Shown here: in pieces, positions 51,522 to 58,697 of the stretch
How positions within the stretch are numbered: the stretch's first letter is position 1
How the letters are laid out: each line of letters starts with the position of its first letter
Origin: Natrinema mahii
Lineage (GTDB): Archaea > Halobacteriota > Halobacteria > Halobacteriales > Natrialbaceae
NCBI GenBank assembly: GCA_000690595.2
Contig: JHUT02000007.1
Span: forward strand, 62,402 to 126,401
Length of the DNA stretch: 64,000 nucleotides
Direction of reading: 5' to 3'
Position numbers and translations under genes: made by a program
The notes under the pieces: model-generated
The model's input: only the letters and a program-made list of their open reading frames with translations
What the model was told of the DNA's origin: nothing
The model's database searches: none

Positions 51522-54500
51522 TCAATCGTCGCCCGAAACGCTCGCGTCCGGCGTCCACTCGTCCGGCCCACAGCCCAGCGACCGGTGCGGACAGTGCCGG
51601 CAGTGGTCGCCCGGCGTCGTCTCCGCGAACGATGGCTCGTCGACCGCCGCGAGCGTCTCGCGGACCGACTCCCAGGCCGGCAGCTCCTCGGGATCGAACA
51701 GGTCGACGCGTGGACCATCAGTGTCGCCGACGTAGACGTAGCCGACCGCGGCGATCGGTTCGCCGACGCGCCGCTTGCAGGCCCGCAGATACAGCGCCAG
51801 CTGGACGGCGTCCTCGGGTGCGATCCGCTCGGCGGTGGCCTTGTAGTCCAGCACGGCGAGCCCGCCGTCGGGGAGCCGCCGGACCGAGTCGACGTAGCCG
51901 ACCACGTCACCGCTCACGTCCGCGACGTCCTCGAGCGAGAAGGGCAGTTCCGCGGCCAGGGGCTCCCAGTCCGCGACCGGCCGGTCGAACCCGGGCGCGC
52001 CCGCCGCGAAGTAGCGGTCGATGCACGCGAGAACGGGTTCGCGGTACTCGAGGAGGTCCCGCGCGGTGAGCTGGCGGACGGCGGCCTCGCGCCAGGCCTC
52101 GCGACCGTCGTACTCGCGGTGGAAGGCCTCCTCTGCGACGTCGTGGAAGACGGTGCCGACGAGCCGCGAGGCCGTCTCGTCGGCTTCCGTCGCGGCCTCG
52201 TCAGCGCCGCCGGCCGCCGATCCCGCCGTCGCTGGCGGATCGTCGAACGCCCGGACGACGTGGTCGAGGTAGTGCTTGCGCGGACAGGTCTCGTGGGTGT
52301 CCATCGCGGAGTAGCTGTGTCGCATCGCGACGGGCAGTTCGGTCGCGGTCGCGAGCGTCTCGACGGGGAAGCGGACGGTGTCGGTCGTCAGCGCCGACGG
52401 GCGGCGACCGCTCGGGGTCCGGATCGGGGGTCCCGTGCCGTCTCCGTCACCCGCCTCGAGGCCGCCGTGGCTCGCGGCGTCGGCAGCGGGAAGGAGCGTC
52501 CCGTCCCGGAGCTGTCGGCCCAGTTCGTGGACCGTCTCGATCGCCGCGCTGGTCTCGAGGGGCTCGACGGGGCGGTCGCCGTAGCCGGCGTAGTAGGTGA
52601 TCGTGCCGGGGGTCTCGCCGGCCGAGGCAGCAATCTCGTCGGTACGGTCGACCACGGTCTCGGGGTAGGTCTCTCGGACGGCCTCGACGCTCTCGGTCAG
52701 CGACGACCAGAGGTCCATCCGTCGGCCGGTCACCGACCACGCGATCTCGTCGGCCAGACAGGCGTCGGCGGTCTCGGCGGCGAGTTCGTCGTCGGCACCG
52801 CCGTACTCGTAGGTCGATCCGAACAGGAACAGGTGGTTCGCCGCGCGAGTGAGCGCGACGTGGAGGACCCGCCACTCCTCGGCGACGGATTCGGCGGCCA
52901 GGTCGGCCAACAGCGGCGAGTCGACGTCGTCGTCGAGCGTCGCCGCAAGCAGTCGGTCCCGGGCGCGGTCGGCGTAATCGCCCTCGACGCACCACTCTTC
53001 GTCCGAGAGGAAGGGGACGAGGACGGTGTCGAACTCCAGTCCCTTCGCCTGGTGGACCGTCATCACGTCGACGCAGTCCTCGGAGCGACTCCCCCGGGTG
53101 CGGTCGCTCCCGCCGCTTCGCAGCGTCGCCGCGAGCGCGTCCACGAACTCCCCCGAGAGCGACTGGATGACGCCGTCGGACTCGTAGGCCTCGACGAACC
53201 GCTCGATACGATCGAACTCGCGTCGCTCTTCGCTCGTACAGAACCACTCGAGCCGAGTCACGTCCCTGAACCGCCGCACGAACCCCGACAGCGGGTAAAT
53301 GTCGCGGTACTCCTCGAGGGCCGCGAGGTGGTCCCGGACCGTCTCGAGTCGGTCGGGGGCCTCGAGATCGAGCGCCGCCGGCTCGGCGGCGGTCACGGCG
53401 TCGTACAGCGAGCCATCCCGGCGCTGGAGCGTCGCCAGATCGCGCTCGGTGAACCGGTACCGATAGAGTAACACGCGCCGGAGGTGGGCGTCCGCCTCCG
53501 GGTCGACCAGCACCCGGAGGTACGACAGCACCGTCTGCAGGCCGGGCGAGACCTCGCCCCGCGGCGAGCCCGACACCTCGTGGGGGATCCGCAGCGACCG
53601 GAGTTCGTCGGCCACCGCCTGCGCGTGGCGGTTGGTCCGGACGATCACCGCGAGATCGCCCAGCGAGCGCTGCGGGACGTTCTCGGCTTCACCGTTGAGC
53701 AGCCGCGAGACCGTCGTCGCGACCTGTGCCGGCGTCGACTGGGGGATCTCGTCGCTCTCGACCGTGACGACTCGATCCGGCGGCTCCGCTTCGTCGTAGC
53801 TCCCCTCGGTCCGGCCGTCCTCCCGCAGCGTCTTCGAGGACTGGTGGGCGTAATCGCAGGCGTTGGTCAGATCGAGAATCTCCTGGCGCGAGCGGAAGTT
53901 GAGCTCGAGTTCGATCCCGCGGTGGTCGTCCGCGGTCGTCGCCAGTCGGTCGAGCCCCTCGCGGTCGGTGCCGCGCCAGCCGTAGATCGCCTGGTCCTTA
54001 TCGCCGATCGCGAGCAGGTCCGGCCGGTCGGGGCCGTCGGTGAGCTCGGTTAGTAACGAAAACTGGGTCGCGTCGGTATCCTGGAACTCGTCACAGTAGA
54101 CCTGCGTCCACTGGCCGGTGATTGCCGGAGCGACCCCGTCGTCCTCGAGCAGCGTCGTCGCCGTTCGCACCAGTTCGTCGAAGTCGAGCGCTCGTTCGGC
54201 CTCGAGGTGGTCGTGGTAGTCCGCGTAGACGTCGGTGTAGTGGCGGGCCAGCCGGAGGAACTCGACGTAGTGTTTGAGCCGGCCGAAGGGCGTCTGCTCG
54301 AGCCGGTCCGTGGCCGATCCCCAGATCTCGTTGCCGAACAGCGCCCGCGGGAGGTGTTTCGTGGTCGGCTCCGCGAGGTCGAGCGCCTCGATCGCGTTCG
54401 TCACGCAGGTCTGGAGCGCCCGCAGGTAGCGGTCGATGTCCCGAACCACGTCCGCTTCCCGGAACGCGTCCGGCGCTTCGGCGATCTTCACCCGGCAGTA

Positions 54501-55289
54501 CTCGATGAGCGTGCCGTAGTCGACCAGCGACTCGCGGGCGGTCTCGAGGTGGTCCTCGTCGTTGAACCACCGCAGCGCCTCGTTGTCGAAGGACAGCTCC
54601 GCGTCGGCGGTCCGCTCGAGCCAGAGGACGAACTCGTTGCACAGCTCGAGGGTTCGGATCGGCGGCAGCGCCGACCGGAGTCGCTCGGGGGTAATTCCCT
54701 CCCGACTCATCGCGGCGATAAAGTCGTCGACCGCGTCGGCGAGGTCGGCCGTCCCCTCGTCCGAGCGGGCCGAGGCGGCCGCAAACCCGTAGTCGTTGCT
54801 CGCGAGCAGCCGGCCGACGATGCGGCGGCGCTTGCGCTCGGTGACGACCTCGAAGTCGGGCGCGTAGCCGAGGTAGTAGGCGTACTCGCGGACGAGCCGG
54901 TAACAGAAGGAGTGGTAGGTGTAGACGTCGATCGCCGCGGCAGCCTCTGGCGAGAGCCGCTCGGCGACCGCGTCGCGGATGCTCGCGGCGGCCTCGTTGG
55001 CGAAGGTCAACACGAGGACGTCCTCGGGGTCGACGTCGCCGTGCTCGATGGCGCGTTCGATCCGCAACAGCATCGTCGTCGTCTTCCCGGTGCCGGCCCC
55101 CGCGTCGACGGACGTACAGGCCGCGTCGCTCTCGATGACCGCCCGCTGGTTGCCCTTGGGGTCGACGCCGGCCGCGAACGCGTGGCCGGGCGCGTCGCCG
55201 GCGTCGGCTCGGGTCGTGCCGCGATCGGTCCCGGCCTCGAGCCCGTCCGTCGGATCGCGGTCGGGGCCGCTGCGGCGATCCTCAGCCAT
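51522..55289 (-). CDS. AddA/RecB-like helicase-nuclease
   Basis: 1255 residues. This is a complete UvrD-type SF1A motor: Walker A DAGAGTGKTTTML (about 66-78), Walker B CDEFQDTDATQF (about 400), IGDKDQAIYGWRGTD, LNFRSRQEI, VMTVHQAKGLEFDTVLVPF and VLHVALTRAANHLFLF. The C-terminal 270 residues are a PD-(D/E)XK nuclease with GYVDSVRR, VLDYKAT (about 1146) and QLALY. Four Cys placed as in Cas4/AddB iron-sulfur nucleases (THETCPRKHY near 1001, CRHCPHRSLGC near 1230) flank it. It likely unwinds and degrades DNA from double-strand ends. ATG 55289 overlaps the upstream stop by eight bases. It is the third gene of an operon with two RecC/AddB-like genes. Confidence 0.9.
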   Translation of the reverse strand: MAEDRRSGPDRDPTDGLEAGTDRGTTRADAGDAPGHAFAAGVDPKGNQRAVIESDAACTSVDAGAGTGKTTTMLLRIERAIEHGDVDPEDVLVLTFANEAAASIRDAVAERLSPEAAAAIDVYTYHSFCYRLVREYAYYLGYAPDFEVVTERKRRRIVGRLLASNDYGFAAASARSDEGTADLADAVDDFIAAMSREGITPERLRSALPPIRTLELCNEFVLWLERTADAELSFDNEALRWFNDEDHLETARESLVDYGTLIEYCRVKIAEAPDAFREADVVRDIDRYLRALQTCVTNAIEALDLAEPTTKHLPRALFGNEIWGSATDRLEQTPFGRLKHYVEFLRLARHYTDVYADYHDHLEAERALDFDELVRTATTLLEDDGVAPAITGQWTQVYCDEFQDTDATQFSLLTELTDGPDRPDLLAIGDKDQAIYGWRGTDREGLDRLATTADDHRGIELELNFRSRQEILDLTNACDYAHQSSKTLREDGRTEGSYDEAEPPDRVVTVESDEIPQSTPAQVATTVSRLLNGEAENVPQRSLGDLAVIVRTNRHAQAVADELRSLRIPHEVSGSPRGEVSPGLQTVLSYLRVLVDPEADAHLRRVLLYRYRFTERDLATLQRRDGSLYDAVTAAEPAALDLEAPDRLETVRDHLAALEEYRDIYPLSGFVRRFRDVTRLEWFCTSEERREFDRIERFVEAYESDGVIQSLSGEFVDALAATLRSGGSDRTRGSRSEDCVDVMTVHQAKGLEFDTVLVPFLSDEEWCVEGDYADRARDRLLAATLDDDVDSPLLADLAAESVAEEWRVLHVALTRAANHLFLFGSTYEYGGADDELAAETADACLADEIAWSVTGRRMDLWSSLTESVEAVRETYPETVVDRTDEIAASAGETPGTITYYAGYGDRPVEPLETSAAIETVHELGRQLRDGTLLPAADAASHGGLEAGDGDGTGPPIRTPSGRRPSALTTDTVRFPVETLATATELPVAMRHSYSAMDTHETCPRKHYLDHVVRAFDDPPATAGSAAGGADEAATEADETASRLVGTVFHDVAEEAFHREYDGREAWREAAVRQLTARDLLEYREPVLACIDRYFAAGAPGFDRPVADWEPLAAELPFSLEDVADVSGDVVGYVDSVRRLPDGGLAVLDYKATAERIAPEDAVQLALYLRACKRRVGEPIAAVGYVYVGDTDGPRVDLFDPEELPAWESVRETLAAVDEPSFAETTPGDHCRHCPHRSLGCGPDEWTPDASVSGDD

Positions 55290-56328
55290 CGAAGCCCACC
55301 TCCCGGGCGATGTAGTCCTGACAGCAGACGGCGTAGTCACACGTCGGACAGGCGTGGTCCTCGATCGCTGCCCACCGCTTTCCGGGGTCGTACGGCCCCG
55401 ACACCAGCGCGGCGGCGACCGCCGCGAGCCGGTCGTCGACGGTCTCGTTGCGATGTTCGTGGGTCATCCCGAAGGTGTGGTGATCGACGTAGCCGTCGGT
55501 CAGGTCGACGATCTCGAGGCTCGTCTCGACGTCGTCGCGGACCCAGTTTATCGCCGTCCCCGACCGATCGGCGAGCGGAATCTGCACGTATCGGCAGGTC
55601 CGATCACCCAACTCGAGCCGGTCGCGGAGCCCGCGGAGGCCGTCGATGACGACGGCGGTCTCGAGGAGCGCGCCGACGGGAGCGGGGTCGAACGCCGCCG
55701 ACTCGGCGTCGAAGTGGTCGGTAAAGAGGGCGGCGACGTCGCCTTCCCAGTCCGACCGGTACCGGAGGAGGCCAAGCGGCGCGACCGTCGGCACGAACCG
55801 GACGCCGACGAGCGACGAGCCGTCGGCGGTGACGTAGTCGACCGTCGCCGAGATCCGAACCGAGTCGGGAGCCGACGCCGACTCGTCCCCGCGGTCCGCA
55901 CTCGATAGCTCGACCGTACTCGAGAGCGGCAGCCCCGGCCCGACGAGTTCGCCGCCGGTCGCTTCGGCCTCGAGCCGCTCGATCCCCGCGGCGTGGTCGG
56001 CGCCGACGGCATCGACGTACGCGGCGGCCGTCGCCTCGAGGACGCGCCGCTCGTGGCGGCGCTGGATCGCCGAATGGAAGCGCTCGTCGTGGTCGGCCCA
56101 CAGCGTCGCCAGCCGGTCCGCGGCGACCGACTCGAGGGCCTCGCCGTCCGCGTCGGCGCTCCGAAGCGCATCACAGAGGGCGGTCCGCAGCAGGTCGACC
56201 CGGTCGCCGACCGCCGCCGGCTCGCCCGCGAGGTCGTGAACGTGGGCGAACTCGTACTGACGAGGACAGCGCAGGCCGGTCCGGAGCCCCTCGACGGAGA
56301 GGGTGGGAACGGCCTCGGCGTCACTCAT
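55282..56328 (-). CDS. Cas4/AddB C-terminal-like Fe-S domain protein, nuclease site apparently lost
   Basis: 348 residues. One Cys near the N-terminus (GLRCPRQYEFAHV, Cys 21) and three near the C-terminus (CPTCDYAVCCQDYI, about 331-342) have the spacing of the [4Fe-4S] site of AddB and Cas4 nucleases. Between them the place of the GxxD...(D/E)xK centre reads ATVDYVTADG and VGVRFVP, so one acidic residue remains but the Asp/Glu-x-Lys pair is missing. It starts inside the end of the upstream AddB-like gene (8-bp overlap ATGAGTGA) and its stop overlaps the AddA-like start by 8 bp (ATGGCTGA). I read it as the detached C-terminal domain of an AddB-like subunit. Confidence 0.75.
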   Translation of the reverse strand: MSDAEAVPTLSVEGLRTGLRCPRQYEFAHVHDLAGEPAAVGDRVDLLRTALCDALRSADADGEALESVAADRLATLWADHDERFHSAIQRRHERRVLEATAAAYVDAVGADHAAGIERLEAEATGGELVGPGLPLSSTVELSSADRGDESASAPDSVRISATVDYVTADGSSLVGVRFVPTVAPLGLLRYRSDWEGDVAALFTDHFDAESAAFDPAPVGALLETAVVIDGLRGLRDRLELGDRTCRYVQIPLADRSGTAINWVRDDVETSLEIVDLTDGYVDHHTFGMTHEHRNETVDDRLAAVAAALVSGPYDPGKRWAAIEDHACPTCDYAVCCQDYIAREVGFDG

Positions 56329-58585
56329 CCCGGATCACCTCCCCGGCGGCGAACTCGAACTGCGACCGGACCGCCTCGGCGAGTTCCGGGTCGATATCGC
56401 CGTCCTCGAGGACGACCGCGATCTCCTCGAACAGCGCCTCGGTCTCGCCGAGGTCGGCCTCGCCCCCCGTACTCGCCTCCCGGAGGAGTCGCTCGAGTTC
56501 CCCTCGCGGCTGGGCAAGCAGCGCCTCGATGGCGTTGGTCTCGCCGTGGATCGCCGCCCCGGCCGTCGCGTCGACGGACTCGAGGGCGAGCCCTGGCGTC
56601 GCGTCGATCAGTTGCAGGTACCGCGACTCGTCGTGGGTCCGGCGCAGGCCGCCCGAGCCGCGCTCGTAGGAACACAGATAGAGGGCCCGCTCGGCGGCTC
56701 GAGCGCCGAGTGCGAGCCGGCGTCGGGACCGCTGGGCGTGGTAGGTCTCGAAGGGGTCGCCGACGTCGTCGGCGTCGACGGTCGCGAAGGTGTCGGCGAT
56801 CGCGTCGACCGACGGATCGGTGACCGCGGGGTAGCTCGGCATCGACCGCAGCCACGCCCCGGGGAACAGCTGGGTGAGGAACTGCTCGCCGGGGTAGGTC
56901 TCGTCGATCAGATCGAGCAGGAAGACCGCCCGCCGCGAGTCGTATTTGAGGTCGCCGACGGCACAGACGGTGACGCCGCCGGACGGCGGCCGCGTCTCGA
57001 CCGCGTGGACGTACGGCGCGTCGTACTGGATCGTCCGCCGGAGCATCCGGCGCAGCCCCTGCCAGTCCGGGCCCACGAGATCCGTCTCCTCGACGAACGC
57101 GGCGATCTCGAGGACGCGACGGACGCCCTCGTACCCCTCACGGGCGTCGACCCAGTCCTCTTCGCGGGCGATCCGTCCTTTCAGGTCAGTCCGCCGGATC
57201 CAGCGCTCGAGCGAGCGCCGGACGCTCGAGCCGGCGGTCTCGGCGAGCAAGTCCGTCGAGAACGCCGGCACTCGGGCCCGGAGCCGCTCCAGCGAGGCGG
57301 CGACCGAGTCGGGCCGGTCTCGCTCGGTGCCGGCGGGATCGGCGTCGACCCGCTCGAGGACGTCGCCGTCCCGTTCCCGCTCGCACTGGCAGGTGACGAC
57401 CGCGTAGAGTTCGTTGACGGCGGGGTCCTCGGCCAGCGACGGGGTGCCGATCGTCGCCGTCGGGACGCCGGCCTCGCGGAGCCGCCGTCTGGTCTCGGGG
57501 ACGCGTTCGATCCGCGGGACGGCAACGGCGAACGCGTCGAACGGCCAGCCGTGGCGGTCGCGCAGCGACTGGATCTCGGTGGCGACCGCCCGGGCCTGTT
57601 CGCGAGCGGTGTCGGTCCGGAGCCGTCGGGCCCGGCCGGCCGGCTCCGATTCCGCCGACGCGGTGGCCGCCGATCCGGCGTCACCGCCGGACTCCGCGCT
57701 CCGAGTCGACGCCTCGCCGGTCGCGAGGAAGCGCGTGATCGCCCGGTGTGGCGGCCCGTCGGCGTTCGGTCTCGGGGGCTCGAGCTCCTCGACCGAGAGG
57801 CCGGCCTCGGTCGCGACGGCGGCGACCCGGCCGGGTTCGACCCGTGTCCGCTCGACGCTGGCGTGGCGCTCGCCGAGACAGACGAGGTCGGCATCGGTCG
57901 ACAGCGCGGCAAGGTAGCGGCGGTCGAGTTCGCGGTACTCCTCGAACTCGACGGCCAGCACGGCGTCGAAAGCGGCCGTCACGCGCGAGCGCAGGCCGTC
58001 CACGTCGGCCTCGAGCAGGTCGACCGCCCGCGGGATCACGTCCGCCCGCTCGACGTAGCCCCGGTCGGCGAGTTCGTCGTGGAATCGGTCGTTCATCGCG
58101 TAGAGGAAGGCCAGACAGTCGTGGGGGTCCTCGAGATCCGCGAGGCGAATCCGCTGGCGGGTCGCCTCGAGCAGGAGCTGGCCCACGTCGCGGGAAAACC
58201 CCTCGTGGGCGGCGGCGCGCTCGAGGTAGTCGGGGACGGATCGGCTCGCGCCGTCGATCACCACCGAGATGAGTTCGATACGCTCCTCGTACTCGAGGCG
58301 GTCGAGGGTCGGATCGTACGCTTCGATGGTCTTGGAGGCGTGTTCCGGCAGCGACTCGACGCGGGGCGAGCGGGGGCCGCCGGCGCGCTCGACGGGTGCG
58401 TCGGCCAGCGCCTCGGTCAGTGACGCCAGCCCCGCCGGATGCCGTTTCAGCACCAGCACGTTCCGCGGGCCGTGGTCGGCGGCGAGAGCGGCGTACTCGT
58501 CGGCGACGGTCGCGCGGAGGGCGTCGCTTGACGCGGGCGCGGGAAGGAGTTTACACGCTCCCTCGAGGGTTGGCGAGGACGGCAT
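56321..58585 (-). CDS. AddB/RecC-like degenerate helicase subunit
   Basis: 754 residues. Overall layout follows the AddB motor domains, with a helical middle and a second RecA-like region containing GDLKYDSRRAVFLLDLIDETYPGE (in pieces, about 545-565) and a motif-VI-like ALGARAAERALYLCSYERG (about 640). Walker A is absent: the N-terminus reads LLPAPASSDALRATVADEY where a P-loop is expected. Thus it is probably not an ATPase but a scaffold or Chi-type DNA scanner, like RecC. It ends without the Fe-S nuclease domain, which is encoded by the next, overlapping gene. Start ATG 58585. Homology to AddB is by pattern reading and should be tested structurally. Confidence 0.72.
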   Translation of the reverse strand: MPSSPTLEGACKLLPAPASSDALRATVADEYAALAADHGPRNVLVLKRHPAGLASLTEALADAPVERAGGPRSPRVESLPEHASKTIEAYDPTLDRLEYEERIELISVVIDGASRSVPDYLERAAAHEGFSRDVGQLLLEATRQRIRLADLEDPHDCLAFLYAMNDRFHDELADRGYVERADVIPRAVDLLEADVDGLRSRVTAAFDAVLAVEFEEYRELDRRYLAALSTDADLVCLGERHASVERTRVEPGRVAAVATEAGLSVEELEPPRPNADGPPHRAITRFLATGEASTRSAESGGDAGSAATASAESEPAGRARRLRTDTAREQARAVATEIQSLRDRHGWPFDAFAVAVPRIERVPETRRRLREAGVPTATIGTPSLAEDPAVNELYAVVTCQCERERDGDVLERVDADPAGTERDRPDSVAASLERLRARVPAFSTDLLAETAGSSVRRSLERWIRRTDLKGRIAREEDWVDAREGYEGVRRVLEIAAFVEETDLVGPDWQGLRRMLRRTIQYDAPYVHAVETRPPSGGVTVCAVGDLKYDSRRAVFLLDLIDETYPGEQFLTQLFPGAWLRSMPSYPAVTDPSVDAIADTFATVDADDVGDPFETYHAQRSRRRLALGARAAERALYLCSYERGSGGLRRTHDESRYLQLIDATPGLALESVDATAGAAIHGETNAIEALLAQPRGELERLLREASTGGEADLGETEALFEEIAVVLEDGDIDPELAEAVRSQFEFAAGEVIRDE

Positions 58586-58697
58586 GACACGTCACCCTGT
58601 ATGGCCGATTTCGTATTTAAATGTGCGCCACTCACCCGTCCGGTCGCTCGGAGACGGCTCGGCTCCCCTCCGTCCGCCTTCCGCAGTCCGACAATTC

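Follow-up and report, generated by a model that had tools for sequence, protein, structure and literature searches.

A conserved haloarchaeal operon encoding a candidate AddAB/AdnAB-type helicase-nuclease with a divided AddB/AdnA-like subunit

Three overlapping genes, here named A, B and C, lie in a 64,000-nucleotide stretch of the Natrinema mahii genome (contig JHUT02000007.1; hereafter the window). Gene A encodes an inactivated SF1 helicase, gene B a Fe-S-type PD-(D/E)XK nuclease domain and gene C a complete UvrD-type motor joined to a second such nuclease. We propose, with a probability of about two in three, that the products constitute a single AddAB/AdnAB-type ATP-dependent helicase-nuclease whose AddB/AdnA-like subunit consists of two polypeptides. 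The operon is conserved among haloarchaea and the active site of B has been lost in the clade that includes the window; the clade in which all six active-site residues of B are intact is new here. The initial annotation, made from the window sequence, was right on the architecture and missed both the likeness to AdnAB and the clade with an active B.

Layout, conservation and setting of the operon

The three minus-strand reading frames and the two 8-bp overlaps described in the initial annotation, ATGAGTGA and ATGGCTGA, are present (Table 1). The TATA-box-like element TTTAAATA is, from its sequence and position, likely to be the operon promoter, and the leader would then be very short. No gene for a RecD-like helicase (SF1B 5′-3′ motor) was found adjoining the operon in the window. 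The genome is near Natrinema, the best named relative being Natrinema thermotolerans (88% in B).

Table 1 Features of the A-B-C operon in the window.
Feature	Position	Strand	Description
Gene A	56321..58585	-	754 aa; inactivated SF1/UvrD-fold helicase, AddB-like N-terminal part; without Walker A, motif II is AVEFEE
Gene B	55282..56328	-	348 aa; PD-(D/E)XK (PDDEXK_1) Fe-S-type nuclease fold, active site lost; C21, C327, C330, C336 and D164 kept
Gene C	51522..55289	-	1255 aa from ATG at 55289; UvrD-type motor and intact PD-(D/E)XK nuclease; AddA/AdnB position
A stop/B start overlap ATGAGTGA	56321..56328	-	8 bp; 4- or 8-bp overlap conserved in relatives
B stop/C start overlap ATGGCTGA	55282..55289	-	8 bp; 4- or 8-bp overlap conserved in relatives
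TATA-box-like element TTTAAATA	58614..58621	-	~30 nt ahead of the A start codon

Gene A was found in 85 of 253 genomes sampled from the order. As the marker of the operon it is present in 46 of the 50 genomes of the Natrialbaceae, the family of the window, and in 39 of about 203 genomes from the other families. Sixty-nine A-bearing haloarchaeal loci were examined in two sets, 51 in the first and 18 in a second that served as a fresh test of the first-set findings. The gene order proposed from the window is conserved, with B directly 3′ of A in 67 of the 69 loci and C next where the contig allows. The order A-B-C is found in 50 of the 51 first-set loci, the C frame being shortened or broken in two; within the second set B adjoins A in 17 of 18 loci (the remaining one is a contig end) and C is as expected in 16. 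The A/B and B/C junctions are 4- or 8-bp overlaps almost throughout both sets and, because both the gene order and these overlaps recur across loci, the 8-bp overlaps of the window are not due to chance. The single first-set exception, a plasmid copy matching Halorubrum lacusprofundi (L065:6928-7863), carries only a 311-aa remnant of A with neither B nor C found beside it, and is a decayed copy. Across the 69 loci, A was seen without B and C only where it is a truncated remnant or where the contig ends, and the loci examined contained no open frame of sufficient length to be an A-B fusion that matched both. Our literature search found nothing on an archaeal A-B-C operon; most subscription papers were outside its coverage, making this weak evidence of novelty.

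The operons of the Natrialbaceae are mostly on large chromosomal contigs. In the Natrinema/Haloterrigena group the operon has uvrA and a CBS gene at one end and a fol gene at the other, and the CBS neighbour is kept more widely within the family than the uvrA/fol setting. Adjacency to uvrA was considered as a functional link and rejected; it is confined to part of the Natrialbaceae and so is probably positional. The active-B copies belong to a broad clade whose operons are partly on plasmids, near Cdc6, type III R-M, BREX-5, SIR2 or SbcCD-like genes. Five active-B loci (L053:3207-5327, L054, L055, L067 and L083) have a gene for a PLD-family protein of ~706-715 aa (PLDc_2; weak Tyr-DNA phosphodiesterase and NgoFVII matches) that ends 5 bp upstream of A, and in another subclade a distant relative of this protein (about 28%) is encoded downstream near the operon (L125:19765-21909 and close relatives). 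The PLD-family protein is a possible fourth component. A pair of SbcD/Mre11-like and Rad50/SMC-like genes is directly upstream of A-B-C on a Natrinema zhouii plasmid (L126:7209-11454) and at two related loci (L046 and L143). A viral origin of the operon was rejected, relatives being absent from the viral contigs searched.

Gene A, gene C and the placement of the Fe-S-type cysteines

Gene A encodes an AddB/AdnA-type SF1 helicase that has been inactivated, as follows from profile and structure matches together with the absence of Walker A and a degenerate motif II. The helicase-type Walker A is missing from every member of the family, and motif II is AVEFEE where active motors have VDEFQD; the initial reading of the first gene as AddB-like and devoid of Walker A is borne out. 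Taken as a single sequence, A had no meaningful match in Pfam or NCBIfam and a single-sequence search was also empty. A profile of 34 members searched against PDB placed AddB (3u44_B) first, with an E-value of 2.3e-8, followed by UvrD1 (5.5e-8). Profile comparison with hhalign gave 98.0% for archaeal AddB, 97.9% for UvrD-Cas4 fusions, 96.0% for AdnA, 90.5% for AddA, 26% for AdnB and 2.2% for RecC, where the AdnA and AdnB comparators are unannotated tandem Nonomuraea genes identified by their layout and the RecC comparator is a single E. coli sequence. The alignment with AddB covers residues 15-733 of A on residues 1-820 of archaeal AddB, i.e. the whole length of A. The 754-aa protein is thus related to AddB, as initially suggested, but UvrD-Cas4 fusions are as close and AdnA is nearly so.

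The AF2 model of A (pLDDT 79) matched UvrD (4.6e-20), AddB (1.4e-18, TMq 0.58) and AdnB (TMq 0.58) in Foldseek, the match to RecC being weaker (4e-11). By hmmsearch the scores were about 1e-20 for UvrD-Cas4 fusions versus about 1e-11 for AddB. Members of the A family matched the curated addB_Gpos model weakly (best 9e-5, below cut-off), and curated AddB cut-offs were reached by neither A nor B. The helicase tree groups A with AddB (91/87), via long branches flagged as unsafe; with AddB left out A finds no firm placement. Chi is read by inactivated helicase regions of AddB and RecC (PMC4824097), and in a low-confidence alignment the AddB Chi/latch residues F210, F68 and E129 fall on the F of AVEFEE, on an L and on a variable E of A, respectively.

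Gene C has the full UvrD-type motor, PD-(D/E)XK nuclease and four cysteines attributed to it in the initial annotation. The Pfam domains UvrD-helicase (UvrD_N), UvrD_C and PDDEXK_1 are all complete, the SF1 motifs are all present (GAGTGKT, YCDEFQDTD, GDKDQAIYGWRG and MTVHQAKGLEFD) and the nuclease is intact (DYK/QxxxY). Walker A, motif II, motif III, the nuclease residues and the four cysteines are retained in every full-length C. One cysteine (C1002) precedes the nuclease core and three (C1230, C1233 and C1240) follow it, as in Cas4, where this arrangement binds Fe-S clusters (PMC4176176); judged from sequence, the cysteines of B and C probably bind such clusters. By profile comparison C is nearest to the UvrD-Cas4 fusions and then to AddA, and its score against the curated addA_Gpos model was 141 bits, the cut-off of 707.65 not being reached.

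A joint alignment of the nuclease domains revealed four cysteine columns common to B, C, AddB, AdnA and the UvrD-Cas4 fusions and missing in AdnB and in six of the seven AddA-like proteins compared. By its four cysteines C differs from the typical AddA/AdnB partners. AdnA and the UvrD-Cas4 fusions are known cases of a motor subunit with a Fe-S nuclease; the new partition of activities put forward initially therefore stands for the AddA/AdnB position, which C occupies, and not for the combination of motor and Fe-S nuclease as such. The AddA-like protein that does have the four cysteines (L120:9354-13139, 1261 aa) is from a non-halobacterial relative. The window genome encodes a third PDDEXK_1 protein (G000:C1:837841-838539, L122), in which a four-cysteine nuclease domain precedes a Walker A-bearing SF1 helicase; the layout of this protein is Dna2-like.

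Two states of the gene B nuclease domain

Gene B is the counterpart of the C-terminal nuclease domain of AddB/AdnA. PDDEXK_1 was detected in 33 of 34 B members, and the best Foldseek match of the AF2 model (pLDDT 87.5) was AddB 4cei_B (E-value 4e-4, probability 1.00), which agrees with the initial view of the 348-aa protein as a Fe-S-type nuclease domain of the AddB kind. The hhalign values were 94% for the C-terminal nuclease of UvrD-Cas4 fusions, 94% for C, 43% for AddB and 32% for AdnA (both weak), and 0.1% for RecC; against PDB sequences the B profile gave chance matches only. The nuclease matched by B sits downstream of the A-matching part in UvrD-Cas4 fusions, AddB and AdnA (hhalign), so that A and B, in this order, are collinear with a single AddB/AdnA chain. 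The suggestion of a RecC-like subunit in two chains is correct in that A and B together match a single chain in order, but their similarity to RecC itself is negligible; 'RecC-like' is a state of A-B and not its ancestry.

The B of the window has RFV at the position of DYK, with D164 and the four cysteines kept. The RecB-family active site was scored on six residues (H, D, D, K, Q and Y), five of which the B of the window lacks. The first set comprised 19 B sequences with all six and 32 with five lost, with no intermediates; among the 17 B sequences of the second set, 11 had all six and 6 were decayed, one of the latter keeping DYR, plausibly a half-way state. A few loci were counted twice via different collections and, after the addition of four annotated plasmid copies, there are 71 distinct B sequences: 33 are intact, 37 have lost four or five of the six residues and one plasmid copy is off at one position. 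D164 and the four cysteines are present in all. The initial description of the middle gene, as having four cysteines and no nuclease pair, fits the clade of the window and does not extend to the family, and B as a generally dead nuclease is ruled out by these counts. The decayed B sequences are those of the window's clade; the intact-B clade is often on plasmids.

A tree of A and C, with B left out, has the active-site loss as one change on one branch; this tree is not self-rooted, and the change is read as a loss rather than a gain because the site is intact in all other nuclease groups (C, AddB, AdnA and UvrD-Cas4). The B genes of the window's clade have a dN/dS of 0.2-0.5, indicating purifying selection, and their cysteines are invariant. 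This suggests that B still does something. RecC has been proposed to derive from an AddB-like subunit with a dead nuclease, AddAB resembling an intermediate stage (PMC1185551), and the loss in the window's clade parallels, in archaea, the proposed decay from AddB to RecC. The dead and active states of B occur side by side in one archaeal order, in operons that otherwise match, so the proposed step from AddB to RecC could be tested by a swap of the B gene.

Comparison with known systems and alternative readings

AddAB has, like A-B-C, a dead SF1 helicase body with a Fe-S-type PD-(D/E)XK nuclease on one side and a motor with a nuclease on the other, the AddB-like part being encoded ahead of the AddA-like part, and it shares with the active-B clade the possession of two nucleases. 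Unlike in AddAB, where AddB is one chain, the nuclease domain is a separate gene in every locus examined here, and in the window's clade the second nuclease is dead. RecBCD resembles the operon of this clade in that RecB corresponds to C as the active motor-nuclease and RecC to A-B as a dead helicase with a dead nuclease; it differs in that a RecD-like helicase is absent from the operon, the RecC-like part is split, B retains four Fe-S-type cysteines and a direct sequence match to RecC is absent. In the actinobacterial AdnAB (layout in PMC13309787) the Fe-S-type nuclease is likewise in the product of the first gene, AdnA, which A matches far better than it does AdnB, and a motor-nuclease, AdnB, is the product of the second. 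AdnA and AdnB both have a Walker A motor, whereas here only C has one; AdnB lacks the Fe-S cysteines and no subunit is split. The UvrD-Cas4 fusions (pfam12705 branch), described in mesophilic archaea (PMC5704561), combine a UvrD motor with a four-cysteine nuclease as C does, but those found here have neither an A nor a B partner while C is tied to both.

The proposed A-B-C heterotrimer would load on duplex DNA ends. C would be the sole motor, a UvrD-type translocase expected from its family to move 3′-5′, and would pull and unwind the DNA; in the lineage of the window it would also be the sole nuclease, its Fe-S-type PD-(D/E)XK domain doing the cutting. A-B would hold one strand and guide the strands, with A as the DNA-guiding dead helicase body, and A might in addition be a DNA reader. 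The outcome would be end resection that feeds RadA recombination, degradation of foreign ends, or both. Where B is intact, in the sister clade, both strands would be cut, as by AddAB, while in the window's clade B may have taken on a structural role, which is the step suggested for RecC. Haloarchaea would in this way gain a candidate RecBCD/AddAB-type end-processing enzyme besides Mre11-Rad50.

The descent of A and B is a separate matter, compatible with the heterotrimer mechanism. Rather than from AddB, they may stem from an AdnA-like UvrD-Cas4 fusion that was duplicated and split, the resemblance to AddB and RecC then being convergent decay. We consider this origin a strong contender, though short of probable. 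The profile of A matches the fusions practically as well as AddB and more strongly by hmmsearch, C is nearest to the fusions, and B matches the fusions and C better than AddB. Such scores can be inflated by similarity to well-conserved active motors, however, and the helicase tree, long branches notwithstanding, puts A with AddB. A wider evolutionary reading seems to us rather unlikely: that haloarchaea evolved a RecBC-like machine, independently of proteobacteria, from an AddAB-like ancestor with two nucleases. Of these, the second would have ended as a non-cutting Fe-S part, and the dead helicase as a reader of DNA sequence, with a Chi-like signal on Natrialbaceae chromosomes, and the two-nuclease sister clade would retain the ancestral state. 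The operon is a reason to seek Chi-like sequences in archaea.

The neighbours of the active-B operons (R-M, BREX and PLD-family genes) point to defence as much as to repair, several of these copies being on plasmids beside type III R-M, BREX-5, SIR2 or SbcCD-like genes, and a link to defence loci has been drawn for UvrD-Cas4 fusions (PMC5704561). The operon as a whole could accordingly be read as a defence system, a helicase-nuclease that destroys linear DNA from invaders and serves repair only in second place, if at all. This is unlikely in view of its near-universal, mostly chromosomal presence in the Natrialbaceae, which differs from the patchy occurrence of defence genes, its fixed site between uvrA and the fol gene in the Natrinema/Haloterrigena group and the lack of viral relatives. 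PADLOC returned only generic UvrD-helicase matches for C and none for A or B; a partner specific to Gabija or another PADLOC system, such as GajA, was not detected. Least probable of all, and in our judgement very unlikely, is that the three products are co-transcribed yet act separately, with C alone a working helicase-nuclease and A and B regulators or accessory factors. In other archaea of the phylum, fusions with the architecture of C do stand without A and B, but the genes of the operon stay together and overlap at their junctions in almost all loci, and the A genes found without B and C are truncated or at contig ends. The heterotrimer is the reading that we prefer for A, B and C.

HerA-NurA with Mre11-Rad50 are proteins unrelated to A-B-C, and DNA-end resection is a likely shared niche. 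The initial annotation set the operon against a normal archaeal reliance on these proteins; as a simple replacement of HerA-NurA it is ruled out, NurA-family genes coexisting with it (Pfam NurA in 96 of 97 haloarchaeal genomes, including the window genome and the Haloferax volcanii control). The match in the control contrasts with a 2020 review, according to which H. volcanii lacks HerA and NurA. Bacterial-type AddB-AddA gene pairs also occur in archaea: one of them (L115) matches the AddB and AddA models, below curated cut-offs, and such pairs, overlapping or adjacent, were seen at five loci of non-halobacterial members of the phylum (L114, L115, L116, L118 and L119).
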